Shown in pieces: positions 4,770 to 42,431 of a stretch of DNA of 61,515 bases; position 1 is the stretch's first letter; each line of letters starts with the position of its first letter. Both the position numbers and the translations under genes were made by a program. A model generated the notes under the pieces. The model was not told where the DNA came from. It was given only the letters and a program-made list of their open reading frames with translations, and ran no database searches. The stretch lies in the NCBI GenBank assembly GCA_002711265.1, contig PAGB01000047.1, forward strand, positions 1 to 61,515. The letters run 5' to 3'. The DNA is from Rhodospirillaceae bacterium. GTDB lineage: Bacteria; Pseudomonadota; Alphaproteobacteria; UBA7985.

Positions 4770-5678
4770 TCAGCCGCCACCGCTGCGGAGGTCCTCGATC
4801 AGGCTCAGTTGCGCCATCCGGTCCTCGAACCAGAGCTGATCAGCCCCCCAGCTGACTGAAAACCCACCGTAGAGCCAGGCAAAATCCAGCGCTTCGCCGG
4901 GGCTGCGGACGGCGCTATCCGTTTCCTGTCCAGCCCCCCGGCTCGTGGAGACTGCAGCGATGGCCTCGGCCAGACGCAGTATGCGCGCCGGATCGGCGAC
5001 CCGGCCGGGCTGATCGATGGGGTTGAAGAACAGGTTGGCGAAATCATAGCCCGGGTGGCCGACATAGCCCTTGGGGTCGATCACCACCCAGCCGCCACTT
5101 CGGTCCCTTTGTCCGGGGTTGTGCATCAGATTGCCGTGGTGGATATCCCCGTGCAGGGGCAGCGGCGCCGGGCCTTCGAGGTCAAAGCCGGCGGCAAAGG
5201 CCCGCCAGCGCGCCAACCGCTCACTCCGGGCGAGCGGCAGCCCGAACACGTGCTCCCGGACATCGGTCAGCGGGATCAAACCGGCGGGCACCGGCCTGCC
5301 CTCACCAGCCCGCAGCGCGCGCCGCGCCTGCCGGTGCAGCCGGTCGGTGGTCGTCACCAGAATGTCGAAGGCACGGGCATCGTCAAAATCGTCGAGGTTG
5401 CCCAGCGCCGGGCGCTGATCCAGCCGCGGCATCATGATGGCGTCGGCGTCGCGGCGCAGCACCCGCACCGCGCCCTCGCCGGCCCACCATTCGAGCAGCG
5501 CCATGCCGGGGCGTTCGTCGCTGCCGGGTTTGGCGACCTTGAGCATGGCGGCAGCGGTGTCAAAGGCCCCGTCCTCGCAGCGGACAGGCACCAGCCACGA
5601 GGACCCGGTCTCGACCGGCTCTCCATCAAGCTTCAAATCCCATTTGGTTATCCGAGACCCTACAAATTCAGCCAGCAT
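4770..5678 (-). CDS. APH(6)/Hur-type small-molecule kinase
   Basis: About 302 residues of the aminoglycoside/hydroxyurea phosphotransferase family (protein-kinase-like fold). The Brenner loop LHGDIHHGNLM and the metal-binding VIDPKGYVGHPGYD segment are both present. Family members phosphorylate streptomycin or hydroxyurea, but chromosomal homologues often have unknown substrates, so resistance should not be assumed. I choose ATG 5678 because GAGAGG sits just upstream; an in-frame GTG at 5690 is the alternative. The start lies inside the last codons of the upstream LysR gene (11-nt overlap), suggesting translational coupling to it. Confidence 0.85.
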   Translation of the reverse strand: MLAEFVGSRITKWDLKLDGEPVETGSSWLVPVRCEDGAFDTAAAMLKVAKPGSDERPGMALLEWWAGEGAVRVLRRDADAIMMPRLDQRPALGNLDDFDDARAFDILVTTTDRLHRQARRALRAGEGRPVPAGLIPLTDVREHVFGLPLARSERLARWRAFAAGFDLEGPAPLPLHGDIHHGNLMHNPGQRDRSGGWVVIDPKGYVGHPGYDFANLFFNPIDQPGRVADPARILRLAEAIAAVSTSRGAGQETDSAVRSPGEALDFAWLYGGFSVSWGADQLWFEDRMAQLSLIEDLRSGGG

Positions 5679-6579
5679 TGGCCCTCTCACCCGTGCGTTC
5701 AGCCACTACAAATGTATGGAGAATCAAGTCTGCCAGCGCGTCGTACACCAGACGGATCTTGGCACTGGTATGCAGTTCACGATGGGTCACGAGCCAGATC
5801 GGAAAAGTCAGGGGCGATGCATTGCGCAGCACACGCACCATGTTGGGAGACTGATCGCCGATGTGGCGGCTCATGAGGCACAGACCAAGGCCTTCCTGCG
5901 CCATAGCCCATGCCACCGGACCGCTGAGGGTGTCGTGAAAGAAATTCTTGGCTGTCAGCTCAACGCCATAGCCCTTCATGACAGCCATCATGCGCGCCGG
6001 ATCCCCGAACGAGATGAACCGATGCCCCTTCAAGCCTGACGAGACGCTCGGTTCTCCGAAGGCGTCGATATACGATTGCGCGGCATAGACCCCCGCACTG
6101 CTTTCCGCCACCAACCGCGCGATCAGGTCCCCCTGCTCCGGACGGGCGTGACGAATCGCGATGTCAGCCTCGCGTCGCTGCAAGTTCTGAATATCGTCGC
6201 TGGCGACGATCTCAAGCCGCAGCCCCGGAGCCTTGCGGGCAATCTGCGCGATGATGCGCGGCAGGTCGTAGAGCGAGAGCATATCGCTGGCGGTGATCTT
6301 GACCGTGCCTGCAATGTCATCCGAATGCCGCGATGCCGCGAGGCTCAGCAGTTCCGCCGCCTTTGACATGGCGCCTGCTTGCTCGAACAGAGCCGTCCCC
6401 GTTGGGGTCAGCGTAAGGCGCCGTCCCTCGCGCTCAAACAGCACGACCCCCAGTTGCGCTTCGAGGGCCTCAACCTTCCGTCCAATCGTTGGCTGAGTCT
6501 GGCCCAGCGCCCGAGCAGCACCCGACAGCGAGCCAGATCGAACTGTAGCCACAAAAGCCCTTACGTGATTCCAGTCCAT
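5668..6579 (-). CDS. LysR family transcriptional regulator
   Basis: A 303-residue regulator starting MDWNHVRAF. It has an N-terminal winged helix-turn-helix (GSLSGAARALGQTQPTIGRK) and a C-terminal effector-binding domain of the periplasmic-binding fold. An in-frame upstream start at 6603 would add eight residues, but the family usually begins at the DW.HVRAF motif. It is divergent from an interrupted methyltransferase gene and overlaps the downstream kinase gene by 11 nt. LysR proteins usually control the divergent gene, so the methyltransferase was probably the original target. The inducer is unknown. Confidence 0.93.
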   Translation of the reverse strand: MDWNHVRAFVATVRSGSLSGAARALGQTQPTIGRKVEALEAQLGVVLFEREGRRLTLTPTGTALFEQAGAMSKAAELLSLAASRHSDDIAGTVKITASDMLSLYDLPRIIAQIARKAPGLRLEIVASDDIQNLQRREADIAIRHARPEQGDLIARLVAESSAGVYAAQSYIDAFGEPSVSSGLKGHRFISFGDPARMMAVMKGYGVELTAKNFFHDTLSGPVAWAMAQEGLGLCLMSRHIGDQSPNMVRVLRNASPLTFPIWLVTHRELHTSAKIRLVYDALADLILHTFVVAERTGERANAG

Positions 6580-26406: not shown

Positions 26407-27717
26407 CTACAGGCTCTGGGCGGCCTTTTTCACCGCGCCGAGGATCTGATCCATATCCGCGTCGGTCAGCGCTGCATGCGTGTAGAGCTTGGCATCGGCC
26501 TTGAGCAGCCCGCTCTGCCGCATCGACTGGTTAAAGGCCCGGGCAAGGTCAGCATCACCGCCGAGCACCCCGCGATAGTCGGTCACGGCGCGTTCCGAAA
26601 ACACACAATCGAATAGCCAGGGCTCGCCGACGATCTGGTGGGCAATACCCGCCGCGCCGAGGTGCTCAGCGTAGGAGTCCATGATCGCCTGGCCCTTGGC
26701 CGCCATGGCCTCGTACATCCCCGGACGGCGCAGGATCTCCATGGTCTTCAGCCCGGCCACCGCTGCCACCGGATTGCCCGAGAGCGTACCGATCTGCATG
26801 GTGAAGCCCTCAGCGCCCACACGGCCCTTGTCGAAGTGCGCCATGATGTCGGCCCGGCCGGCGATAGCCGCCAGCGGGAAACCGCCACCGATGATCTTGC
26901 CCAGCGTGCACAGGTCGGGGGTGACGCCGTAGTAGGATTGGGCACCGTGGTAGGTGAAGCGGTAGCCGGTCACCACCTCGTCGAAAATCAGCACGATCCC
27001 GCGCCGGGTCGCTTCCTCACGCAAGCCAGCGAGGAAGCCCTCTGCGGGCGCAAGAATGCGCTGCAGAGGTTCGACGATGATGCCCGCGACCTCGCCCTCG
27101 AACTGGTCCAGCAGCTGCCGCACAGCCTCCAGGTCGTTGTAGGGCGCAATGACCATGTTCTCCTCGACGCTGCGCGGGATACCGGCGCTGTCGGGAACGG
27201 CGTTGGGAAAGTTGACCAGCTGCTGCGGGGCCAGCGACATCAGCGCCTCGGCCGACATGCCGTGGTATCCGCCCTCGAACTTAAGGATTTTGTCACGGCC
27301 GGTGAAGGCCCGGGCGAGCCGCATAGCGTACATATCCGCCTCGCCGCCGGTGGAGACGTAGCGGACCTGCTCGGCGCAGGCCATGTCCTCGACGATCTGC
27401 TCGGCCAGCGCAATCCCGGCACTGTTGTTGGTGAAGAAGGTAAGCCCGCGCCTCATCTGCTCGGCGACGGCGTCGGCGACTTCCTCGTTGCCGTGCCCGA
27501 GGATCATCGGGCCAGAGCCGATCAGCAGGTCGATGAACTCGTTGCCGTCCTCGTCCCACACGCGGCTGCCCTGCCCGCGGGCGAGGATCACGCCGGGGTC
27601 AAAGTTGCCGAAACCAGCGGCGGGCAGCACCTCGGCAGCGCGCGCCTGCCAGTGGGCCAGCCCGGCGGCGTCTGCTGCGCTGGCGGGGTTGTGCTGATGA
27701 GCGTCGATCTGGTTCAT
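26407..27717 (-). CDS. Class III PLP-dependent aminotransferase (glutamate-1-semialdehyde aminomutase-like)
   Basis: About 436 residues from ATG 27717, chosen because GAGGGTGAC lies just upstream; 27759 is an in-frame alternative. The fold-type I features are clear: GSGPMILGHGNEEVADAV near the N-terminus, VSTGGEADMYAMRLARA, the Asp in LIFDEVVTGYRF that contacts the PLP ring, and the Schiff-base Lys in TLGKIIGGG. It resembles glutamate-1-semialdehyde aminomutases, but with betaine-type catabolic neighbours a transaminase for an amino or imino acid intermediate is more likely than haem synthesis. It is the last gene of the 33.1-26.4 kb series, 65 nt after the enolase-superfamily gene. Confidence 0.88.
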   Translation of the reverse strand: MNQIDAHQHNPASAADAAGLAHWQARAAEVLPAAGFGNFDPGVILARGQGSRVWDEDGNEFIDLLIGSGPMILGHGNEEVADAVAEQMRRGLTFFTNNSAGIALAEQIVEDMACAEQVRYVSTGGEADMYAMRLARAFTGRDKILKFEGGYHGMSAEALMSLAPQQLVNFPNAVPDSAGIPRSVEENMVIAPYNDLEAVRQLLDQFEGEVAGIIVEPLQRILAPAEGFLAGLREEATRRGIVLIFDEVVTGYRFTYHGAQSYYGVTPDLCTLGKIIGGGFPLAAIAGRADIMAHFDKGRVGAEGFTMQIGTLSGNPVAAVAGLKTMEILRRPGMYEAMAAKGQAIMDSYAEHLGAAGIAHQIVGEPWLFDCVFSERAVTDYRGVLGGDADLARAFNQSMRQSGLLKADAKLYTHAALTDADMDQILGAVKKAAQSL

Positions 27718-27782
27718 GTCACCCTCGTTATTGACTCGGTTGTTGGTCTGACCGTCCATGAGCCAGCCTCAATTAACGGTCC

Positions 27783-28898
27783 TCAGGAAAAGTGTCTCAA
27801 GGGTTCGCCCAGCCAGTCTTCCGGCGGCTCGACCCCGATCCCGGGTTTGTCCGCCGCCAGCCGCACCATACCACCCTCGTTGCGAGCGCCTTCCCCCGGG
27901 GCATAATCATCCACCAGATGCGCGTGCGCAAGCCAGCTGGCGAGCCGGTTCTCTTCCGGCGTCGACAGGGCGAGGTGCAGCGCAGCGGTGTCGGCGAGCA
28001 CGGTACCGCCGACGTCCTCGACGTGCATCTGCCAGCCCACGGCGACGCAGAAGTCGCGGACCTGCCGGGTTCGGGTCAGCCCGCCCAGACGGTTGGGCTT
28101 GATTTTACAGCCCTGCCCGGCCGACCGGGACCAGGCGTCCAGATGGTCCTGAAAGGTGTGCAGGCACTCGTCGAGCATGATCGGCTGGGTGGTGTTTGCG
28201 GCGACGACCGCGCACTGGTCGAGGGTCTGGCAAGGCTGCTCGAACCAGCCCCGGGCGCTGCCCGCCACCGACTGCATCACCTGAATGGCGACCCCGGGCA
28301 CCCACGCACGGTTGATGTCGTAGGTGACGTTCTCATCGGCTGGCAGCGTGGCTTCGATCGCCTCGATCCGAGCGATGTTTCCGGCGATGTCTGCTCCGCC
28401 GATCTTGGCCGAGTGGGTGCGGTAGCCCTTGGCCCGCGCCGCGTCGATCAGCGCCACCATCTCGTCCGGTGTGCCGGTGGAGATCGAGGAATTGACGGCC
28501 ACGCCCTCGCCCTCTGCCCCGCCGAACAGCTCGAACAGGGGCGCGCCGGCGCGCTTGCCTGCGATATCCCACAGCGCCATGTCGAGCGCAGACTTGGCGT
28601 AGGGATGGCCGGGCAAAGCCTGATCCATGGCCCGGTTGAGGCGGTCGATATCGCCGGGGTTCTCCCCGATCAGCACTGGCGCCAACAACTCCATGGCCGC
28701 GCGGATACCGCCACCAAAGGCCGGCAGATAGGTCTCGCCCCAGGGACAGCCCTCCCCCCAGCCGACCAGACCGCCGTCGGTCTCGACCCGGACAAAGGTG
28801 CTGTCCAGCGCTTCGAACTTCAGCCGTCCCCCGGACAGCCAGTAGGGCTTGGAGAGCGGCAGGCGACGGTGCCAAAGCGTGATGCCGGTGATCTTCAT
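27783..28898 (-). CDS. Mandelate racemase/enolase-superfamily enzyme (hydroxyproline-betaine epimerase or cis-3-hydroxyproline dehydratase-like)
   Basis: 371 residues starting MKITGITLWHRRLPL. The N-terminal capping domain contains YWLSGGRLKFEALDSTFVRV; the barrel has Lys165 in HSAKIGG, metal ligands Asp194 (TYDINRAW), Glu220 (WFEQPC) and Asp243 (MLDECLH), and Lys265/Lys267 in GCKIKPNR. This layout matches, from memory, the branch containing 4-hydroxyproline betaine 2-epimerase (HpbD) and cis-3-hydroxy-L-proline dehydratase from roseobacters. I cannot separate the two activities. Neighbouring demethylating and oxidising enzymes favour proline-betaine or hydroxyproline catabolism. Spacing to the upstream oxidoreductase gene is 46 nt. 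Confidence 0.85.
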   Translation of the reverse strand: MKITGITLWHRRLPLSKPYWLSGGRLKFEALDSTFVRVETDGGLVGWGEGCPWGETYLPAFGGGIRAAMELLAPVLIGENPGDIDRLNRAMDQALPGHPYAKSALDMALWDIAGKRAGAPLFELFGGAEGEGVAVNSSISTGTPDEMVALIDAARAKGYRTHSAKIGGADIAGNIARIEAIEATLPADENVTYDINRAWVPGVAIQVMQSVAGSARGWFEQPCQTLDQCAVVAANTTQPIMLDECLHTFQDHLDAWSRSAGQGCKIKPNRLGGLTRTRQVRDFCVAVGWQMHVEDVGGTVLADTAALHLALSTPEENRLASWLAHAHLVDDYAPGEGARNEGGMVRLAADKPGIGVEPPEDWLGEPLRHFS

Positions 28899-28944
28899 GG
28901 GTGATGCAATGCTCCCGTCTCTGCGAACGCTGCTGCGCGCAAGG

Positions 28945-30060
28945 TCAGCGACAGTCGACCACGATGTTGCCAACGTGCTGCTTGGCGATGAAGGCCTTCT
29001 GCGCGTCAACGAGGTTTTCCAGCGCGAAGACCTCTGCGACCAGCGGTTTGATTTCCCCGCGCTCGATGTAGCCCACCAGATCGGCAAACACCCCCGGCGG
29101 AACAATGGTCGCCCCGGTGAAGGTCAGATCGCGCAGGTAAAAGGTGCGCAGGTCCATATGCACCATCGGCCCGGCGATGGCCCCGGCACAGGTATAGCGC
29201 CCGCCGCGTTCGAGCACATCGATCAGCGCGGGCCACAGGTCACCACCAACGACATCGGCGACCACGCTGACCGTGTCGCTGCCGATGGCCTCGCGCAGGG
29301 CCGCGCTCAGGTTCTCCGGCTGACGCGGCAGGATGGCGTCCGGGCCGCAGGCGGCCACGCCCTCCCGCTTGCTCTCTGAACACAGCGCCACAACCCGCGC
29401 CCCGCGCCGCTTGGCAAGTTGGATCAGCGCCCCGCCGACCCCGCCCGAAGCCCCGGGCACCAGCACCGTATCACCGCTGCTGACGTTGGCGCGGTTGAGC
29501 ATGTTTTCTGCGGTGAAGTAGGACGTCGCAAAGCTGGCGATATCCGTATCCGACAGGTCGCTGTCGATGGGGTGGACGTAGCTCTGATCGATCTTGGTGT
29601 AGTGCGCAAAACCACCATCGCACTCCGAGCCGAAGTAGCCGATGACGTCGAGGTTCATGGGGTCATTCCAGTCGCGGATCCACGTTTCCAGCATCACCCG
29701 CTTGCCGATCAGCGCGGCATCCGCGCCCTCGCCCACGGCGACAACCTCTCCGCAGACATCTGCGCCTTGAATGCGCGGGAAGGTCAGCGGCGCGCCGCCC
29801 CAGGTGGCATCATCCTCGTCAGCGCTGTCGAAGGCGCCGCCGGTGGTATTCTCCTCGACACCCTTGGAGTACCAAGCTGTGCGGGTGTTGACGTCGGTGT
29901 TGTTGAGCCCGCAGGCGGCCACCCGGATCAGCACTTCGCCCGCACCGGGCGTGGGTGTGGGCCAGTCGTGGTGTACCTCCAGCCGGTCAAAGTCCCCGTG
30001 CCCGGTCAGAACAACGGCGGTCATGGTTGCAGGAATGCTCTGGTTTTGGTTCGCAGTCAT
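28945..30060 (-). CDS. MDR-superfamily alcohol dehydrogenase / quinone oxidoreductase-like protein
   Basis: 371 residues from ATG 30060. The GroES-like N-terminal domain (GEVLIRVAACGLNNTDVNTR) is followed by a Rossmann domain with the nucleotide motif VPGASGGVGGALIQLAK near residue 190. The structural-zinc Cys cluster of classical alcohol dehydrogenases is absent, so it is probably zinc-independent like quinone oxidoreductases. The Cys in ACGLNNTD sits where catalytic-zinc enzymes have Cys. It lies between the flavoprotein (42 nt) and enolase-superfamily (46 nt) genes on the same strand, so it likely oxidises or reduces a pathway intermediate. The substrate is unknown. Confidence 0.85.
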   Translation of the reverse strand: MTANQNQSIPATMTAVVLTGHGDFDRLEVHHDWPTPTPGAGEVLIRVAACGLNNTDVNTRTAWYSKGVEENTTGGAFDSADEDDATWGGAPLTFPRIQGADVCGEVVAVGEGADAALIGKRVMLETWIRDWNDPMNLDVIGYFGSECDGGFAHYTKIDQSYVHPIDSDLSDTDIASFATSYFTAENMLNRANVSSGDTVLVPGASGGVGGALIQLAKRRGARVVALCSESKREGVAACGPDAILPRQPENLSAALREAIGSDTVSVVADVVGGDLWPALIDVLERGGRYTCAGAIAGPMVHMDLRTFYLRDLTFTGATIVPPGVFADLVGYIERGEIKPLVAEVFALENLVDAQKAFIAKQHVGNIVVDCR

Positions 30061-30102
30061 GATCAAGGGTGCTCGCTCGAAAAAGGTCGGTGGATCAGAT
30101 GC

Positions 30103-32571
30103 CTAGACCGCATCGGTCCGCGGCAGAAGGCTGTCAGGATCGTACAAAGGCCGGTCGGCGACAACCGCCTTGCGCGGCTTGCCCTGAATGACGACCTCCA
30201 GCGCCTGTCCCGGCGTCGCCGCCGCAGGCCGGATGTAGGCAAAGGCGAGGATCTTGCCCACGGTCGGACCAAAGGCCACCGAAGACGTGGAACCGACGAC
30301 TTCACCGTTCAGCAGGACCGCTTCACCGCCGTGGCCGTCTTCATCACCCTCGGGTTCGATCACCAGATAGGCACAGGTCCAAGGCATGTCTCCGGCCTGC
30401 TGCGCCTGCGCGGAGGCCTCGGTTGCAGCCTTGCCCACGAAGTCCTTGTCCAGACGCACGAACCGCATGACATCGGCCTCGGGCAGCGTCACCTCGTTGG
30501 TCAGCTCGCCCGCGCCCTTGAACATCTTTTCCATGCGCATGGCGTTCATGGCGAAGGAGCCGTAGTCGGTGATGCCGTGGGCTTCTCCGGCTGCCCACAG
30601 CGCGTCGTAGACCACGAGCATGGCCTCGGCCGGGCCGTGGATCTCCCAGCCAAGCTCCCCGGCGTACGACAGCCGCATCGCCCAAACGCTGTGCCCGGCG
30701 ATGCTGATCTCCTGCGCGCTGAGCCAGCGGAAGCTGGCGTTATCCAGCGCCGCCGGTGTCGTCGCCGCCAGCACGTCGCGCGACTTCGGCCCCTGCAGCG
30801 CCAGTGCCGCCCAGTCGGTCGAGAGCACACGAATGCTGACGTCGGCGCCCTCGAGCCGCTGGCTGAGGTAGTCGGTCAGCCGGGTTTCGAAGAAGGCCGC
30901 GCAGACTAGATAGAAGCGATCCTCGGCGAGCTTGACCACGGTGGTCTCCAGCTCGATCCGACCACTTTCGTGCAGGAAGTGCGAAAGGCCGATCCCACCG
31001 ACCTTCTGCGGCAGCCGGTTGGGCAGCAGCCGGTCGAGCAGGCTGGCGGCATCCGGGCCGCTGACCTCGACCTTGGTGAAGGCAGAAATATCCATGATCC
31101 CCACCGCCTCGCGGACGGCGCGGCACTCCAGCGCCACCATGTCGTCGACCGGCGTGTGCCGGAAGGAATAGTGGTCGCGCTGCTCAACGCCGCTGCGGGC
31201 GAACCAGCGCGGGCGTTCATGGCCGAAGACCTCCTCATAGACCGCGCCCTTTTCTGCGAGGCGCTGGTACATGGGGCTGGGCTTGACCGGGCGACCGTCG
31301 AGCCGGTTGAAGTGCGGGAACGGGATTTCGTGGCGCAGGCAGTAGTCTTCCTTGGCTTTGACCACCTGCCAGTCCTTGGTGGCATAATCGCCAAACCGGC
31401 GCGGGTCGAAGGTCCGCATCTGGATGTCGGCGGCGCCGTGGACCATCCAGCGGGCCAGCTCGCGGGTCAGGCCCGGCCCCCAGCCGATGCCGATCTGTGT
31501 CCCGCAGCAGCACCAGTAGTTCTTCGCGCCCGCGACCGGGCCGATCAGTGGGTTGCCGTCCGGCGGGTGCGAGATCGCGCCGTGGACTTCGCGCTTGATC
31601 CCCAGTTCGGCCAGTACCGGCATCCTCTCCATGGCGTTTTCCAGCCACGGCATGATCCGGTCATAGTCGGCCTCGAACAGCTCGTTTTCAGCCTCCCACG
31701 GGCAATGGTCGATCCAGACCGCGTTCGGGTTGGCCTTCTCGTAAATACCAATCAGGCCGGATTTCTGTTCCATGCGGATATAGCCCGAGACCTTGGCATC
31801 GTCGCGCACCACCGGCAGTTCGGTGTCCAGATCCCGAAACGCCGGCACAGCTTCGGTGACAAGATAGTGGTGGGTCATGGACGTCATGGGCAGGGTGAGC
31901 CCCGACCACTCCCCCATCTGCCGGGCGTAGGTGCCTCCGGCGTTGACCACATGCTCGCAGGTGATGTCGCCCTGCTCGGTGAAGACCTTCCACTCGCCGC
32001 TGTCGAGCTGCTTGATGTCCGTTGCCCGGCAGCGGCGGATGATGCGCGCACCCAGCTGCCGCGCCCCGGTCGCCAGCGCCTGGGTAATGCCGCTGGGGTC
32101 GACGTGGCCATCGTCAGGGGTGTGCAGCGCCCCGATCACACCTTCGAGGTTGTAGAAGGGGTGGAGTGCGGCGACCCGCTCCGGGCCAACGAGCTCGATG
32201 TTGAAGCCGAGTGTACGCCCCACGGACAGCGTATGGCGCAGCCAGTCCATTTCGTCTTCGCTGTACGCCAGCCGGAACGAGCCACAGCCATGCCACGTGA
32301 CCGACTGCCCGGTCTCGGCCTCCAGCGCCCCGGAATAGAGCCCGATGTTGTAGTCCACGCACTTACCCAGCGCGAACGAACTGGTGGAGTGGGTGATCTG
32401 CCCCGCCGCGTGCCACGTCGAGCCCGATGTCAGCTCGGCCTTCTCCAGTAGCACGATGTCCGTCCAGCCCTCGTGCGCGAGGTGGTAGGCCAACCCGCAG
32501 CCCATGACACCGCCGCCGACGATGACCACACGGGCACTGGTGGGAAAGGACTTCTGGGCAGGCTCGGCCAT
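30103..32571 (-). CDS. Dimethylglycine/sarcosine dehydrogenase-like flavoprotein (FAD + GcvT domains)
   Basis: 822 residues from ATG 32571, preceded by GGAG. The FAD-binding DAO domain starts with VVIVGGGVMGCG (residues 15-26); His54 in GSTWHAAG is at the position that covalently binds FAD in dimethylglycine dehydrogenase. An FAO middle domain follows (KPSPMYQRLAEKGAVY near residue 440), then an aminomethyltransferase-like folate domain to the end (GIMDISAFTKVEVSGPDA; GELGWEIHGPAE). This architecture oxidatively removes N-methyl groups and passes the one-carbon unit to tetrahydrofolate. Here the substrate is probably an N-methyl amino or imino acid from a betaine. It is 42 nt from the oxidoreductase gene. 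Confidence 0.93.
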   Translation of the reverse strand: MAEPAQKSFPTSARVVIVGGGVMGCGLAYHLAHEGWTDIVLLEKAELTSGSTWHAAGQITHSTSSFALGKCVDYNIGLYSGALEAETGQSVTWHGCGSFRLAYSEDEMDWLRHTLSVGRTLGFNIELVGPERVAALHPFYNLEGVIGALHTPDDGHVDPSGITQALATGARQLGARIIRRCRATDIKQLDSGEWKVFTEQGDITCEHVVNAGGTYARQMGEWSGLTLPMTSMTHHYLVTEAVPAFRDLDTELPVVRDDAKVSGYIRMEQKSGLIGIYEKANPNAVWIDHCPWEAENELFEADYDRIMPWLENAMERMPVLAELGIKREVHGAISHPPDGNPLIGPVAGAKNYWCCCGTQIGIGWGPGLTRELARWMVHGAADIQMRTFDPRRFGDYATKDWQVVKAKEDYCLRHEIPFPHFNRLDGRPVKPSPMYQRLAEKGAVYEEVFGHERPRWFARSGVEQRDHYSFRHTPVDDMVALECRAVREAVGIMDISAFTKVEVSGPDAASLLDRLLPNRLPQKVGGIGLSHFLHESGRIELETTVVKLAEDRFYLVCAAFFETRLTDYLSQRLEGADVSIRVLSTDWAALALQGPKSRDVLAATTPAALDNASFRWLSAQEISIAGHSVWAMRLSYAGELGWEIHGPAEAMLVVYDALWAAGEAHGITDYGSFAMNAMRMEKMFKGAGELTNEVTLPEADVMRFVRLDKDFVGKAATEASAQAQQAGDMPWTCAYLVIEPEGDEDGHGGEAVLLNGEVVGSTSSVAFGPTVGKILAFAYIRPAAATPGQALEVVIQGKPRKAVVADRPLYDPDSLLPRTDAV

Positions 32572-32729
32572 GGCGCAGTTCTCCGGTTCTGGGGATTCTG
32601 CAGCCAGCAATAAGGTACAGTTGTACACTTCTCAGCTTGAAAAAGGACTTTTGTACCAGAATTGCGACCTAGAGCCGAAAGAAACAGGCCGGTCGGGAAG
32701 CCGCGCGCCGGCGGCTCATCCCGTCGGTC

Positions 32730-33110
32730 TCAGAGCAGCCCCTGCTCCTCCAGCACCTTGCGCGCAACACGGAAGCATTCGAGCGACTGCGGCACCCCGC
32801 AATAGATGCCGACCACGTGGATGATCGCGCGAATCTCCTCGACGCTGACGCCGTTGTTGATCGCGCCGCGACAGTGAATTTCCCATTCGTGCATCTTGCC
32901 CAGCGCGCCGATCATCGCGAGGTTCATCATCGACCGGGTCTTGGCGTCGATGGCCTCATCGCCCCAGCCGAAGCCCCAGCACCAGGCGGTCATGGCCTCC
33001 TGAAACGGGCGGGTGAAGTCATCGGCAGAGGCGAGATTGGCTTCGACATAGGCCGCGCCAAGGGTTGCTTTGCGCTGTTCAAGGCCAGTTTCAAACAAGT
33101 CCTGCTGCAT
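32730..33110 (-). CDS. Carboxymuconolactone decarboxylase (CMD) family protein
   Basis: 126 residues, all helical by composition, with the family core AKTRSMMNLAMIGALGKMHEWEIHCRG and the conserved His in the EIHCRGAINNG helix. The C-terminal part is related to 4-carboxymuconolactone decarboxylase (PcaC), but no protocatechuate genes are nearby, and family members also act as peroxidase-like AhpD proteins or lactone-processing enzymes. It is first in the minus-strand catabolic series, 158 nt before the flavoprotein gene, whose leader includes an AT-rich stretch at 32620-32670 that may be a second promoter. Confidence 0.85.
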   Translation of the reverse strand: MQQDLFETGLEQRKATLGAAYVEANLASADDFTRPFQEAMTAWCWGFGWGDEAIDAKTRSMMNLAMIGALGKMHEWEIHCRGAINNGVSVEEIRAIIHVVGIYCGVPQSLECFRVARKVLEEQGLL

Positions 33111-34583: not shown

Positions 34584-35834
34584 ATGGATATCGCCGTTTA
34601 TCCAATCCTGCTTGAGTGGGTCGAAACCGCCTTCCGTATTGCGCACGTCGCCACGGCAATCGCGTGGATCGGGTCGTCGTTCTACTTCATCGCGCTCGAT
34701 CTGGGCCTGCGCCGCGACGGCCCCCTGCCCGAGAAGGTGAACGGGGAAGAGTGGCAGGTCCACGGCGGCGGCTTCTACCACGTGCAAAAATACAACGTCG
34801 CCCCGCCCAACCTGCCCGAGCACCTGACCTGGTTCAAATGGGAGAGCTACGCGACGTGGCTCACCGGTTTTGCCATGCTGGTGCTGGTCTACTATCTCGG
34901 CGCTGACCTCTACCTGATCGATCCCAACGTGCTCGACATCCCGATCTGGGGTGGGATCTTGATCTCGCTGGGCTCCATCGCCCTGACCTGGGTGGTCTAT
35001 GACGTGCTGTGTAAGAGCCCGCTGGGCCGTGACAGCACGCGGCTGATGATCATCCTGTTCATCATCCTCGTGGTGCTCGCCTGGGCCTATACGCAGGTCT
35101 TCAGCGGGCGCGCGGCCATGCTGCACCTAGGCGCCGCGACGGCGACGATCATGTCCGCCAACGTGTTCATGATCATCATTCCCAACCAGAAGATCGTCAC
35201 AAAGGACCTGCGCGAGGGCCGCGAGCCGGACGCCAAATACGGGGTGATCGCCAAGCAGCGCTCGACCCACAACAACTACCTGACCCTGCCGGTGCTGTTC
35301 CTCATGCTCAGCAACCACTACCCGCTGGTGTTCGCCAGCGATTTCAACTGGCTGATCGCGGGGCTGGTGTTCCTGATCGGGGTCTGCATCCGCCACTTCT
35401 TCAACACCCGCGACGCGCGCAAGGGCAACCCGGCCTGGACCTGGTCAGCGGCGATTTTCCTGTTTGCCGTGGTGATCGCGCTGTCGGTCTGGCCGTTCCT
35501 GTACAAGGCCCCGCGGGGCGAGGCCGAAGCGGCGACGCTGGCAGCGAGCCTCACCCCCTCCCAGACGCGGCTGATGCAAGCGCCTGAGTTCGCTGACGTG
35601 CACACCATCGTGCAGAACCGCTGCACGGTCTGCCACGCCGAAGCGCCCGCCTGGCAAGGCCTTTACGGTGCGCCCAAGGCGGTCGCACTGGAAACCCCGG
35701 AAGAAACCGCGATCCACGCCAAGCGCATCTACCTGCAGTCCGCGCTGACCGACGCTATGCCGCCGGCGAACAAGTCCGGCATGCGCGAGGAAGAGCGCCT
35801 CGCCATCAAGGAATGGTTCGAAAACTACCGCTGA
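34584..35834 (+). CDS. puuD: Membrane-bound urate oxidase with C-terminal cytochrome c
   Basis: 416 residues. PuuD oxidises urate to 5-hydroxyisourate and passes electrons to the respiratory chain through its own haem. The N-terminal about 310 residues contain eight or nine transmembrane helices with the family segments ETAFRIAHVATAIAWIGSSFYFI, HGGGFYHVQKY and IPNQKIV. The C-terminal domain has the haem c motif CTVCH (near residue 350) and an axial Met in DAMPP. No hydroxyisourate hydrolase or xanthine dehydrogenase is in the window. Its stop overlaps the convergent PhyH gene by 10 nt. Confidence 0.95.
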   Translation: MDIAVYPILLEWVETAFRIAHVATAIAWIGSSFYFIALDLGLRRDGPLPEKVNGEEWQVHGGGFYHVQKYNVAPPNLPEHLTWFKWESYATWLTGFAMLVLVYYLGADLYLIDPNVLDIPIWGGILISLGSIALTWVVYDVLCKSPLGRDSTRLMIILFIILVVLAWAYTQVFSGRAAMLHLGAATATIMSANVFMIIIPNQKIVTKDLREGREPDAKYGVIAKQRSTHNNYLTLPVLFLMLSNHYPLVFASDFNWLIAGLVFLIGVCIRHFFNTRDARKGNPAWTWSAAIFLFAVVIALSVWPFLYKAPRGEAEAATLAASLTPSQTRLMQAPEFADVHTIVQNRCTVCHAEAPAWQGLYGAPKAVALETPEETAIHAKRIYLQSALTDAMPPANKSGMREEERLAIKEWFENYR

Positions 35835-36616
35835 CCGACAACGACCGGGAACCAGTCCTCGCGCAGGCGCTGTCCCGGCTGCATGTCGTGCCCGGGAAAG
35901 GGCGGTGACGTCCGCCCCGGCCGCTCGACATAACGGGCATCATCCCCGACAAACCGCAGCGAGAACGCCCGCCGCCGCCGGGTGGACATATTCCCGCGTG
36001 CGCCGTGCAGCACCTTGAAGTCAAAGGCAACGGCATCGCCCGGCGCCAGTGGCCATTCGAGCACGCGCATGCCCTCGGCATCGGGGTCGGGCACGGGGAT
36101 ATAGGCGGATTCGTCGGGATAGAACTTGTCTTCCTTGAGCCAGCGGGTCGGCAAGACCGGCTTGGGCCAGCGGTGGGACCCGGCGACACAGCGCAAGGTC
36201 GCATCTTCGACCGGCTCGACAGTAGTCCAGAAACTCACCGTCTGCTGCCCTTCGACGAAGTAGTAGGGGCTGTCTTGGTGCCATGGCGTGGGCTTGCTCG
36301 TCCCCGGTTCTTTGACCAGCACGTGGTCGTGAAAGAACTGGGCGCTGCCCGACTGCATCAGCTGCGCAGCAACGCTGGCGGCCGGCGAGCGCTGCACTAT
36401 CTCTGCGAAGGCGGGAATCCGGGTCCAGTTGCAGTAGTCATCGAAGAACCGGCCGCTTTCGCCGCTTTGCAGGTTCTCTGCCGCGTAGGGACCGGGGGAG
36501 GCCATGTTTTCTTCGATGCCCTCGGCGATCTGGTCGATCCAGCCGCTGAACAGCCCCTTGATCAGCACCGCACCGTCGCGCTGGAAGGCTTCGATGGTTG
36601 CCGCGTCGATCTGCAT
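35825..36616 (-). CDS. Phytanoyl-CoA dioxygenase (PhyH) family protein
   Basis: A 263-residue non-haem Fe(II)/2-oxoglutarate dioxygenase. The HxD iron ligands are in TPWHQDSPYY (near residue 118), the distal His in FKVLHGARGN near residue 205, and the 2-oxoglutarate Arg in STRRRRAFSLRF. The family includes phytanoyl-CoA hydroxylase and ectoine/proline hydroxylases; the substrate here is unknown. ATG 36616 has GGGGGACGC upstream; GTG 36637 is an alternative. The 3' end overlaps puuD by 10 nt. In this betaine/osmolyte-rich neighbourhood a hydroxylase for a compatible solute is a reasonable guess. Confidence 0.87.
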   Translation of the reverse strand: MQIDAATIEAFQRDGAVLIKGLFSGWIDQIAEGIEENMASPGPYAAENLQSGESGRFFDDYCNWTRIPAFAEIVQRSPAASVAAQLMQSGSAQFFHDHVLVKEPGTSKPTPWHQDSPYYFVEGQQTVSFWTTVEPVEDATLRCVAGSHRWPKPVLPTRWLKEDKFYPDESAYIPVPDPDAEGMRVLEWPLAPGDAVAFDFKVLHGARGNMSTRRRRAFSLRFVGDDARYVERPGRTSPPFPGHDMQPGQRLREDWFPVVVGQR

Positions 36617-39515: not shown

Positions 39516-40166
39516 CTAAGCGAGTGGCATTGATGCCGTCGGCGGCATCGCCGATGGCGCCACCGCAGCTTCATCCATGGAATAGCTCTCAAAGCTGATA
39601 TCACCAGTCCACGACCAGAGGGCGAGGATCGGCTCTGCCTCGGATCGCGTTGCATGGTCTTCGCGGCTGCCATGGAGGATGAAGCTCCCCGCTGGGCGCG
39701 GCACCCAAGTCTGGCTCCTATGCTGCCATAACCCCGTGCCGGAGAGGACGTGATAGAGCTCGACGGCGTTGTGACGGTGAGACGGGTAGAAGGTGTCCCG
39801 GTCATGCCAGTAGATGCCCAGCCGGATGTCGTCGCTGCGCACCATGCCATCGGGGCCGATGAACTCGACATAGGCCCGGTTGGTGTAGGCCGCATCGGTG
39901 AACACGCCCCGGGTCCGCCACTGGAGCACGGGTTGCAGGCGCTCGAGCGCACCGACGATCGGGTCACGCTTGCGGTTGAGCGGCGCGAGGCTCTCGGCCA
40001 GCACCACGTCATGGTCGATAAAATCCCAGTGCGGAAGCAGCCCCTGCAGCCGCCGGATCTGCGCTGCCGTCTCTGCCCCTTGCGGCACAGGGGCTTCGGC
40101 GTAGCGGTGGGCGAACTGGTCCAGCAGCACCGACCAGGCCTGCTCAAGAAGGGGTGAGGTCAACAT
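39516..40166 (-). CDS. Cupin DMSP lyase family protein (DddQ/DddL-like)
   Basis: 216 residues from ATG 40166; a TTG start at 40325 would add 53 residues that look non-coding. The C-terminal cupin has the metal motif YPSHRHNAVELYHVLSG (His130, His132, Glu136, Tyr138) and the second motif HATRSEAEPILALWSWTGD with His171, the ligand pattern of DddQ/DddL/DddK-type dimethylsulfoniopropionate lyases. These cleave DMSP to acrylate and dimethyl sulfide. The N-terminal about 115 residues are helical, as in DddQ/DddL. No acrylate-processing genes (acuI, prpE) adjoin it; its partners are a divergent RpiR regulator and a Rieske oxygenase. Related cupins can act on other substrates. Confidence 0.8.
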   Translation of the reverse strand: MLTSPLLEQAWSVLLDQFAHRYAEAPVPQGAETAAQIRRLQGLLPHWDFIDHDVVLAESLAPLNRKRDPIVGALERLQPVLQWRTRGVFTDAAYTNRAYVEFIGPDGMVRSDDIRLGIYWHDRDTFYPSHRHNAVELYHVLSGTGLWQHRSQTWVPRPAGSFILHGSREDHATRSEAEPILALWSWTGDISFESYSMDEAAVAPSAMPPTASMPLA

Positions 40167-40342
40167 GGGAGGCGAACCGTGCTCTGTGTCTCCGATATGG
40201 GCGTGCAAATGCAGCAAGGTGAGGGCGCCGTCTGAAACCAGACCGACGTTTCTGGCCCTTCCACGCCTTGTCTCAACCCAATATTTCGCTGGTACTTCAA
40301 TGCGCTGGACAAGAGGACCACACAACTGTACCTCGTTAGGTC

Positions 40343-41308
40343 ATGAATGGCATGAATGTATCATCCGGCACGGTCGACGACACCGAAGCGCCGCACGCAA
40401 CCACCCAGGGCCCCGCTACGGCCGATCCGGGCTCACCCGAGGCCGTGCTCGAGCGGCTCACCGCCGCCCAGGGCGACATGCCCCCACAGCTGCGCCGGGC
40501 TGCGACCTTCCTGCTGGAAAATGCCGCTGCAATCTCCGTCTCCTCCATGCGCCAGCTGGCCGATGCCGCCGGGGTCAAACCGAACACGCTGGTGCGGATG
40601 GCGCGCGCGCTGGGGTTCGAGGGCTTCGAGGACTTCCGCCGCCCGTTTCAGGAGCAGGTGCGCCGCGGCGGCGGTCAGAGCTATACCGACCGTGCCCGCT
40701 GGCTGCAGGATCTTTCCCACGGGGGTGAGCTGGACCGCCTGTTCGGCGATATGGCCGCAGCCTCGATGAACGGCATCGAAGCCATGTTTTCAGGCACCGA
40801 CCGCGCGTCGGTGCAGGCCGCGGCCCGGCAGATTCTCGGCACGCGCGCGACCTTCGTGCTCGGCATGGGCATCGCCAATCCGCTGGCGCGCAACTTTGCC
40901 TATCTGGCATCCATGGCCGTCGACACCATCCAGGCGATCCCGCAGGACGGCGCGCTACCGATCGACGCGCTGGCCCTGGCGCGCAAGGGCGACGTGCTGC
41001 TCGCCATGACCTTCAAGCCCTACCGCCGCGACGTGGTCGAGACGGTGGAGGCCGCTCAGGCGCAGGGGCTGGAGGTCATCGCCCTGACCGACAGCCCGGC
41101 CAGCCCGATCCTCGTCGGCGCCCGCCACGGCTTTCTTGTTCCCGTCGATACCCCACAGTTCTTCACCTCGACCGTCGCGCTGGCCGCCTTTCTCGAAACG
41201 CTGATGGCCTTCGTGATCGCAGAAGCGGGACAAAATGTCGTGGCTTCGATTGATCGCTTTCACCAGCGGCGGCACGCTCTGGGTATCTATCTGGACGCAT
41301 CCGATTAG
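40343..41308 (+). CDS. MurR/RpiR family transcriptional regulator
   Basis: 321 residues. The N-terminal helix-turn-helix (residues about 45-100: MRQLADAAGVKPNTLVRMARALGF) is followed by a SIS domain (residues about 155-290: TFVLGMGIANPLARNFAY, LLAMTFKPYRRDVVETV, VIALTDSPASP) that usually senses a phosphorylated sugar; in betaine or taurine regulons related proteins sense non-sugars. It is divergent from the cupin gene across 176 nt and lies 19 nt before the Rieske gene, so it probably controls both. ATG 40343 and ATG 40352 are both possible starts. Confidence 0.92.
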   Translation: MNGMNVSSGTVDDTEAPHATTQGPATADPGSPEAVLERLTAAQGDMPPQLRRAATFLLENAAAISVSSMRQLADAAGVKPNTLVRMARALGFEGFEDFRRPFQEQVRRGGGQSYTDRARWLQDLSHGGELDRLFGDMAAASMNGIEAMFSGTDRASVQAAARQILGTRATFVLGMGIANPLARNFAYLASMAVDTIQAIPQDGALPIDALALARKGDVLLAMTFKPYRRDVVETVEAAQAQGLEVIALTDSPASPILVGARHGFLVPVDTPQFFTSTVALAAFLETLMAFVIAEAGQNVVASIDRFHQRRHALGIYLDASD

Positions 41309-41327
41309 CGGCGGAGTTTTTTTGGCA

Positions 41328-42431
41328 ATGAACGAGACCTCTCCCATCATCCGCTCGCTCGAAGGGCGCTACTACACCGACCCGGAGATTTTTGCGACCG
41401 AGCGCAACGGGCTACTGATGCGGACCTGGCAGTTTGCCGGTCACGTCAGTCAGGTTGCCCGGCCCGGCGACTACTTTGCCTTTGAAATGTCGGGAGAAAA
41501 CCTGTTCTGCCTGCGCGATCGCGCCGGTGAGGTGCGGACCTTCTTCAACGTCTGCCAGCACCGGGCGCACCAGCTGGTCAGCGGCAGCGGCCACGCCTCG
41601 CTGGTTGTCTGCCCTTATCACTCCTGGACTTACGAGCTGACCGGCCAGCTCCGCGCCGGGCCGAACATCCGCTCCGTGCCGGACTTTCCCAAGTCCGAAA
41701 TCTGCCTGACCTCGGTGCGCACGGAGGTCTTTCACGGCTTCATTTTCGTCAATTTCGACGACGACGCCGCGCCCATGGATGACTGGTTTCCGGGGGTGCG
41801 TGAAGAGCTGGGTGCCTTCGTCCCGGAAATCGACCGGCTGGCGCCGCTGGAGTGGGTGGAAATCCCGGAAAAGTGCAACTGGAAGGTTTCGATCGAGAAC
41901 TACTCCGAGTGCTACCACTGCTCGATCAATCACAAGACCTTCGCCACCGGCGTGATCAAACCCGAAACCTACGACATCCAGCCCCAGGGCTATTGCCTGC
42001 GCCACACAACCGAGTGCCAGAACCTCGATCAGATGACCTACCCCATCGATCTGGAAAGCAACGATTTTGCCGGCTCTTACAGCAGCTGGTTCCTATGGCC
42101 GACCTTTTCGTTCCAAGTCTACCCGGGCAACCGGCTCAACACCTATCACTGGCGCCCGCACGGGCCCGATGACTGCACGGTCTGGCGCGGCTGGTACTCG
42201 ATCGATGGCGAAGAAGACCCGGTTGTCCGTCAGCTGGCGGTCCAGGACCGGGAAACCACGGTGGAAGAAGACATTCACCTGGTGGAGAGCGTGCAACGGG
42301 GACTGAAGTCCAAGGGCTACGTGCCCGGTCCGCTGGTGCTCGACCCCGGCTGCGGGGTCAATTCCGAGCACTCGATCCGTGCCCTACAACAGTGGATGCG
42401 GGAAGGTGTCGCCGGAACCCGCCAACCCTGA
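41328..42431 (+). CDS. Rieske non-haem iron oxygenase, alpha subunit (CntA/GbcA/stachydrine demethylase-like)
   Basis: 367 residues from ATG 41328. The Rieske 2Fe-2S ligands are Cys76-x-His78 (VCQHRAH) and Cys95-x2-His98 (CPYHSW). The catalytic domain has NYSECYHCSINH with mononuclear-iron His197 and His202. Residue 194, the inter-domain bridge, is Glu instead of the Asp of aromatic-ring dioxygenases; Glu here is typical, as I recall, of quaternary-amine oxygenases such as CntA. An N-demethylase or betaine monooxygenase is therefore more likely than a ring dioxygenase. It lies 19 nt after the RpiR gene. No reductase gene is next to it, so electrons must come from elsewhere. Confidence 0.88.
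   Translation: MNETSPIIRSLEGRYYTDPEIFATERNGLLMRTWQFAGHVSQVARPGDYFAFEMSGENLFCLRDRAGEVRTFFNVCQHRAHQLVSGSGHASLVVCPYHSWTYELTGQLRAGPNIRSVPDFPKSEICLTSVRTEVFHGFIFVNFDDDAAPMDDWFPGVREELGAFVPEIDRLAPLEWVEIPEKCNWKVSIENYSECYHCSINHKTFATGVIKPETYDIQPQGYCLRHTTECQNLDQMTYPIDLESNDFAGSYSSWFLWPTFSFQVYPGNRLNTYHWRPHGPDDCTVWRGWYSIDGEEDPVVRQLAVQDRETTVEEDIHLVESVQRGLKSKGYVPGPLVLDPGCGVNSEHSIRALQQWMREGVAGTRQP

Follow-up and report, generated by a model that had tools for sequence, protein, structure and literature searches.

The 61,515-nt contig PAGB01000047.1 of Rhodospirillaceae bacterium (assembly GCA_002711265.1; its whole length is called the window here) probably carries a split regulon for the catabolism of a betaine-type quaternary amine. 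One arm consists of the genes for an RpiR-family regulator and a Rieske oxygenase, the other of five genes at 26.4-33.1 kb, and a DMSP-lyase-like cupin gene that does not group with dddQ lies beside the first arm. The gene set, its conservation, and a predicted operator pair with 30-bp spacing at both promoters were read from the DNA sequence. The first-pass annotation had singled out the cupin, RpiR, and Rieske genes (39516-42431), and the missing half of the cluster (26407-33110) had not been linked to them.

The gene cluster and its conservation

The genes of the two arms are as follows.

40343..41308, + strand: RpiR-family regulator with HTH_6 and SIS domains (domain search; the orthologue adjoins the Rieske gene in 75 of 80 loci)
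41328..42431, + strand: CntA-like Rieske oxygenase, 367 aa, with bridging Glu194 and with Tyr192 at the position of CntA Y203 (domains, CntA match, and alignment)
32730..33110, - strand: carboxymuconolactone decarboxylase-family protein (CMD) (domain search; conserved cluster partner)
30103..32628, - strand: dimethylglycine dehydrogenase (DMGDH)-like FAD oxidoreductase with GcvT domains (PF01266, PF01571, and PF08669; cluster partner of the Rieske gene)
28945..30060, - strand: Zn-dependent alcohol dehydrogenase (ADH)/quinone reductase-like enzyme of the medium-chain dehydrogenase/reductase type (domain search; conserved cluster partner)
27783..28898, - strand: enolase-superfamily enzyme of the muconate-lactonizing enzyme (MLE) type (domain and structure matches; conserved cluster partner)
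26407..27759, - strand: class III aminotransferase resembling glutamate-1-semialdehyde aminomutase (AT3) (domain search; conserved cluster partner)

The gene coordinates bear out the arrangement first described, in which the cupin gene is divergent from rpiR and the Rieske gene begins 19 nt past the rpiR stop codon. In the RpiR protein, the N-terminal HTH_6 domain (41.1 bits) and the C-terminal SIS domain (51.2 bits) both scored over the cut-off. The FAD/GcvT protein matched the DMGDH structure 5l46 with 520 bits, and the true start of its gene is probably ~25 codons downstream of position 32628.

Orthologues of the Rieske oxygenase were found across the order and the class at 67-84% identity, and among 84,980 species genomes, 80 Rieske loci were found at an identity of at least 69%. 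These loci came mainly from Alphaproteobacteria (roseobacters, Rhizobiales, and others); a few were on contigs whose titles name gammaproteobacterial metagenome-assembled genomes. The layout is RpiR-Rieske-(ALDH)-(CMD), divergent from FAD/GcvT-ADH-[0-3 cupins]-1-3 enolases-AT3, where ALDH is an aldehyde dehydrogenase resembling betaine aldehyde dehydrogenase (BADH). Among the 80 loci, RpiR and the FAD/GcvT protein were each present in 75, the enolase in 67, CMD in 63, AT3 in 60, ADH in 57, and ALDH in 43. One or more cupins were detected in 31 of the 58 clusters in which FAD/GcvT, enolase, and AT3 were all visible, always on the FAD/GcvT strand. The copy of the cluster ALDH in the genome under study is located on another contig (C55).

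The cluster is also carried by a conjugative 93-kb plasmid of Sulfitobacter sp. SK012 (L182, NZ_CP025807.1) and, in Roseovarius sp. THAF8, by a non-mobilizable plasmid, where it adjoins an ABC transporter. On the Sulfitobacter plasmid, a DMSP_lyase-family cupin gene lies ~28 kb from the RpiR-Rieske cluster. In two relatives from the genus of the window (L042 and L043), the RpiR-Rieske cluster continues past CMD with genes for an MttB-like methyltransferase and a PanE-like reductase; those of L043 lie between CMD and FAD/GcvT, and the contig of L042 stops after the PanE-like gene.

Predicted operators at two promoters

Operator sites were predicted with a position weight matrix (PWM) trained without the window's genus, and the promoter-like element was inferred by alignment with 43 other loci.

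40321..40333, + strand: predicted RpiR operator site 1, CACAACTGTACCT, score 14.2 (PWM)
40351..40363, + strand: predicted RpiR operator site 2, CATGAATGTATCA, score 18.6, over the first rpiR codons, 30 bp from site 1 (PWM)
32613..32658, - strand: second predicted operator pair, where the FAD/GcvT gene starts, with scores of 13.6 and 8.2 (PWM)
40306..40334, + strand: promoter-like element of rpiR, TGGACA-N17-TACCTC

The site at 40351 is the best single site of the whole window, and site 1 spans the spacer and the -10 region of the promoter-like element. Pairs with 30-bp spacing were found at exactly two places in the 61.5 kb, rpiR and the FAD/GcvT gene, compared with an average of 0.01 pairs in shuffled windows. 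Because the paired operator is found at both genes, the RpiR regulon appears to be split in two here. Operator pairs were detected at the same two genes in the genus relatives L039 and L043. When the 44 rpiR start regions were aligned, the promoter-like element was accompanied by a TACAWWTGTA-type site, with a second copy 30 bp downstream reaching into the first codons. Since these codons stay AAT GTA TCA/CCA even in high-GC genomes, constraint at the DNA level is suggested. A search of the divergent region for generic consensus promoters gave no match, although the rpiR element is conserved across loci.

The first-pass annotation had suggested 40167-40342 as the region to search for an operator. 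Predicted site 1 lies there, with its partner inside rpiR; the palindrome GTCTGAAACCAGAC (GTCTG-AAAC-CAGAC, a perfect inverted repeat) at 40230-40243 was rejected as an RpiR-type operator, as it was present only in the three species with the trio arrangement and absent from the other clusters. Elsewhere in the window, a lone strong RpiR-operator-like site, TACAAATGTATGG (5707-5719, score 14.0), was observed ~30 bp upstream of gene 4770-5678 (minus strand).

The Rieske oxygenase and its probable type of substrate

The Rieske oxygenase contains the domains PF00355 and PF00848, and its best solved relative is the carnitine monooxygenase CntA (193.7 bits). The Rieske ligands (C76/H78/C95/H98), the 2-His-1-Asp triad (H197/H202/D315), and the bridging E194 were all invariant in the orthologue alignment. 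The bridging Glu, recognized already in the first pass, sits in the motif ENYSECYHC; NYSECYHC was found in 91 of the 92 orthologues and NYNECYHC in one. In group Va of the quaternary-amine Rieske oxygenases (CntA, choline monooxygenases, and OxyBAC), an aromatic residue grips the trimethylammonium group, and group Vb (GbcA and Stc2) has Asn instead (PMC7948474). The Tyr is kept in all 92 orthologues, and a trimethylammonium substrate is therefore favoured for the window enzyme, which bears the hallmarks of group Va. Its likeness to CntA extends from the Rieske and catalytic domains to the bridging Glu and the Tyr at the cation-pi position; as a difference from CntA, no CntB-type reductase was seen beside it. 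To our knowledge, cnt loci do not include DMGDH-like, enolase, or aminotransferase genes.

Alternatively, the Rieske oxygenase could remove N-methyl groups from an amino-acid betaine, for example proline or hydroxyproline betaine, in an HpbD/Stc2-like pathway with the enolase as an epimerase. The proline/hydroxyproline betaine pathway includes HpbD, a Rieske enzyme, and a DMGDH-like enzyme, and the window cluster resembles it in combining a Rieske oxygenase, a DMGDH-like FAD/GcvT enzyme, and an MLE-type enolase related to 2pmq and 4h2h, which we take to be HpbD-type enolases. However, the solved structure nearest to the window enolase is 2qdd, followed by cis-3-hydroxyproline-dehydratase-like proteins, and the enzyme resembles 2qdd, 3eez, and 4mgg more than 2pmq/4h2h. 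The window cluster also adds the RpiR regulator, CMD, and the class III aminotransferase to such a gene set, and Stc2/GbcA-type demethylases have Asn where the window Rieske family has Tyr (PMC7948474). We consider an amino-acid betaine demethylase unlikely, though not far-fetched.

The window enolase carries S-A-K where MLE enzymes usually carry K-x-K, which hints at altered acid/base chemistry.

The cupin and its relation to DddQ

39516..40166, - strand: DMSP_lyase-family cupin of 216 aa (PF16867 match, aligned residues, tree, start by conservation, and fold model)

The cupin matched PF16867 (DMSP_lyase, where DMSP is dimethylsulfoniopropionate) with 81.4 bits against a cut-off of 27. The start was placed at the ATG at 40166, as similarity in most genus relatives begins near M53 of a longer frame and fades before that residue; the longer frame, reaching to 40325, was rejected as an over-extension from a TTG start. 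The upstream limit first given for this gene was revised on this ground. The HxHxxxExY motif and distal His reported in the first-pass annotation are present, together with an upstream Tyr. Essential residues of DddQ are Tyr120, His123, His125, Glu129, Tyr131, and His163 (PMC4437653), and alignment with in-cluster DddQs showed that all six catalytic residues are kept as Y127, H130, H132, E136, Y138, and H171, numbered from the ATG at 40166. In a fold search with the AlphaFold model (pLDDT 83.7), DddQ structures came first (E 2e-14 to 1e-12), and KdgF, DddK, and DddY ranked lower. Identity to DddQs was 19-25%.

In roseobacters, by contrast with the window, sequence comparison indicates that the cluster cupin is DddQ itself, and each solved DddQ lineage of the three (Ruegeria lacuscaerulensis 4la2/5jso, R. 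pomeroyi 5cu1, and Roseovarius nubinhibens 4b29) has close relatives there. The in-cluster cupin of R. lacuscaerulensis matched its own crystal structure with 321 bits, and two in-cluster cupins of Roseovarius albus matched 4b29 (265 bits) and 5cu1 (226 bits); some of the in-cluster cupins were compared with solved structures in this way, and those tested were DddQ. The window cupin shares with DddQ the DMSP_lyase domain, the six catalytic residues, and the fold, and has homologues within the same RpiR-Rieske-FAD/GcvT cluster, whereas it belongs to another clade and is divergent from rpiR rather than inside the FAD/GcvT operon.

A tree of 131 DMSP_lyase-family domains, in which ratified DddL, DddW, and DddK are not among the sequences, contained a DddQ clade of 39 rows (SH-aLRT 99). 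The window cupin fell outside it, a point on which the first-pass interpretation was not supported. Inside the clade, 32 of the 39 rows lie in the cluster, a 33rd in a cluster remnant (L229), and six elsewhere; this share is not an unbiased rate, because the in-cluster rows were collected by way of the Rieske gene. An initial tree had put every DddQ-clade cupin in the cluster, a statement that was narrowed when six members lay outside after the addition of 41 PF16867 hits. In a class-wide sample of 385 genomes that was not chosen by the Rieske gene, only two of six DddQ-clade members were in the cluster. In the same sample, of 21 Rieske relatives, counting the window, 3 had a PF16867 gene within 15 kb, compared with ~0.1-0.2 expected by an approximate calculation from gene numbers and genome sizes. 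No open-access paper was found that links DddQ with the RpiR-Rieske-DMGDH-enolase cluster, and the original DddQ paper, which was outside that search, may show the neighbourhood. The claim that no described system has the trio must be qualified, because known dddQ genes lie in the same cluster.

Might the window cupin be a true DMSP lyase, releasing dimethyl sulfide (DMS) and acrylate, whose gene lies near betaine genes because cells take up and use DMSP together with betaines? The complete set of DddQ catalytic residues, the DddQ structures as nearest folds (E 2e-14), and the presence of ratified DddQs in the same cluster elsewhere speak for it. Its low identity to DddQs and its place outside their clade do not, and no acrylate genes were seen beside it. 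Moreover, contig C13 of the same genome encodes DddP, which scores over the curated-model cut-off (744.9 bits versus 600) and matches DddP structures with 616-633 bits, and another DMSP_lyase-family cupin, from a clade common to the genus relatives, is located 47 bp downstream of dddP. Since the genome has DddP, the window cupin is not required for DMSP cleavage, and we regard a true DMSP lyase as improbable. The locus on C13 (L056, 2571-9859) also encodes a malonyl-CoA-synthase-like ligase and a DmdA-like GcvT protein, the latter below its cut-off (342.7 versus 410).

The cupin gene in the genus

Six genomes of the genus were compared (G000-G005, G000 being the genome under study). The exact cupin/RpiR/Rieske arrangement was found in three (G000, G003, and G005) and nowhere else. 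RpiR-Rieske is located away from the cupin gene in G001 and G004, and no close Rieske orthologue was found in G002 within this comparison. With local adjacency in only three of six genomes, the trio was ruled out as a conserved unit. That it is more than chance was confirmed, in that these three genomes keep the arrangement and the Rieske oxygenase itself is conserved across orders at 67-75% identity.

It is quite possible, if short of an even chance, that the cupin is unrelated to the regulon, a psuK-psuG neighbour whose position beside rpiR in some of the genomes is accidental. The psuK-psuG-cupin adjacency, with the cupin gene always convergent with psuG (32-bp gap in the window) and psuK beyond, is kept in all six genomes compared with three for RpiR-Rieske, and no operator pair was found beside the cupin gene in the other three. 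However, in two of these (G002 and G004) the cupin gene is two genes from an ALDH gene whose product shares 63-68% identity with the Rieske-cluster ALDHs, and elsewhere the operon of this pathway contains DddQ-clade relatives of the cupin.

Proposed pathway and weighing of the evidence

In the split regulon that we propose, RpiR would repress both promoters, and binding of a pathway metabolite to its SIS domain would end the repression. The Rieske oxygenase would hold a trimethylammonium group through Tyr192 and oxygenate next to that group, the ALDH encoded on another contig would oxidize the resulting aldehyde, and the FAD/GcvT enzyme would strip N-methyl groups onto folate. The enolase, ADH, and aminotransferase may then process the carbon skeleton. 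As judged from homology, DMGDH-like demethylation, a BADH-like ALDH, an enolase close to the cis-3-hydroxyproline dehydratase type, and an aminotransferase would fit the further breakdown of a quaternary amine. By analogy with DddQ, and in spite of the different clade, the cupin probably uses a metal-bound Tyr as a base for alpha-proton abstraction and beta-elimination. If it belongs to the pathway, it may act on a pathway-related onium compound or betaine, or on DMSP taken up with betaines; its place in the RpiR regulon is plausible.

Several observations weigh against this proposal. The constant neighbours of the cupin gene in the genus are psuK and psuG, with RpiR-Rieske adjoining in only half of the genomes. 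The window cupin belongs to a genus clade (support 99) within a 54-row group of DMSP-lyase-like cupins (support 93), apart from DddQ. No CntB/GbcB-type reductase was seen in the gene clusters, and only one weak FAD_binding_6 match was found in the 79%-complete genome. The CntA-type residues fit trimethylammonium C-N cleavage, whereas DMGDH-like enzymes act on N-methyl amines. Finally, the PWM scan detected no operator pair near the cupin gene in L037, L038, and L040, where it occurs without RpiR-Rieske. Because no pair was detected in these three relatives, control of the cupin by RpiR is hypothetical, and the predicted operators do not by themselves bring the cupin into the RpiR regulon. The original suggestion of a methylated-osmolyte pathway under one RpiR thus agrees with the gene content, the CntA-type Rieske oxygenase, the shared operator, and the occurrence of DddQ inside the cluster in many roseobacters, but not in the part that places the cupin under RpiR.

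CntA-type Rieske enzymes and DddQ are already known. DddQ has a low, unexplained affinity for DMSP (PMC5395565) and is more efficient on dimethylsulfoxonium propionate (DMSOP) than on DMSP (PMC10686828). A more speculative reading, which we hold to be less likely than not, is that DddQ and its relatives, the window-type cupin included, are primarily betaine-pathway enzymes under RpiR, with cleavage of DMSP or DMSOP being secondary. The native substrate would then be a nitrogen analogue or a pathway intermediate, which, if true, would explain the poor affinity for DMSP. The location of DddQ inside a conserved, operator-defined betaine-type operon points to specific enzymes under common regulation and to specific candidate substrates, and the cluster, the operator, and the split form in the window make the question of its native substrate testable. 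For metagenome surveys, a DMSP_lyase-family cupin should not always be taken as a source of DMS.

Related cupin loci and further observations

On the Rhizobium plasmid pRheCIAT894e (L179, 5974-9137), two DMSP_lyase-family cupins lie near a proline/glycine betaine ABC transporter, a demethylase-like NADH:flavin oxidoreductase, an electron transfer flavoprotein (ETF), and formaldehyde detoxification genes. This stachydrine-type locus resembles that of the window in having such cupins beside betaine transport and demethylation-type genes, but the flavin/ETF demethylase-like enzyme replaces the Rieske oxygenase and DMGDH, and the cupins are from a distant clade. A Gemmobacter locus contains a DMSP-lyase-like cupin with choline-dehydrogenase and CaiB-like genes. 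Judging from gene content, the Rhizobium and Gemmobacter loci suggest that the cupin family may serve onium-compound catabolism more widely. Many Rhizobium plasmids carry cupins of the L179 type under the annotation DMSP lyase.

In Rhodobacteraceae EL129 (L105, 3687-5495), three tandem dddQ-type genes from different DddQ subclades were observed in one operon. In the window, a membrane protein with a urate-oxidase N domain is encoded convergently with a PhyH dioxygenase at 34584-36616, and this pair is kept in the genus.

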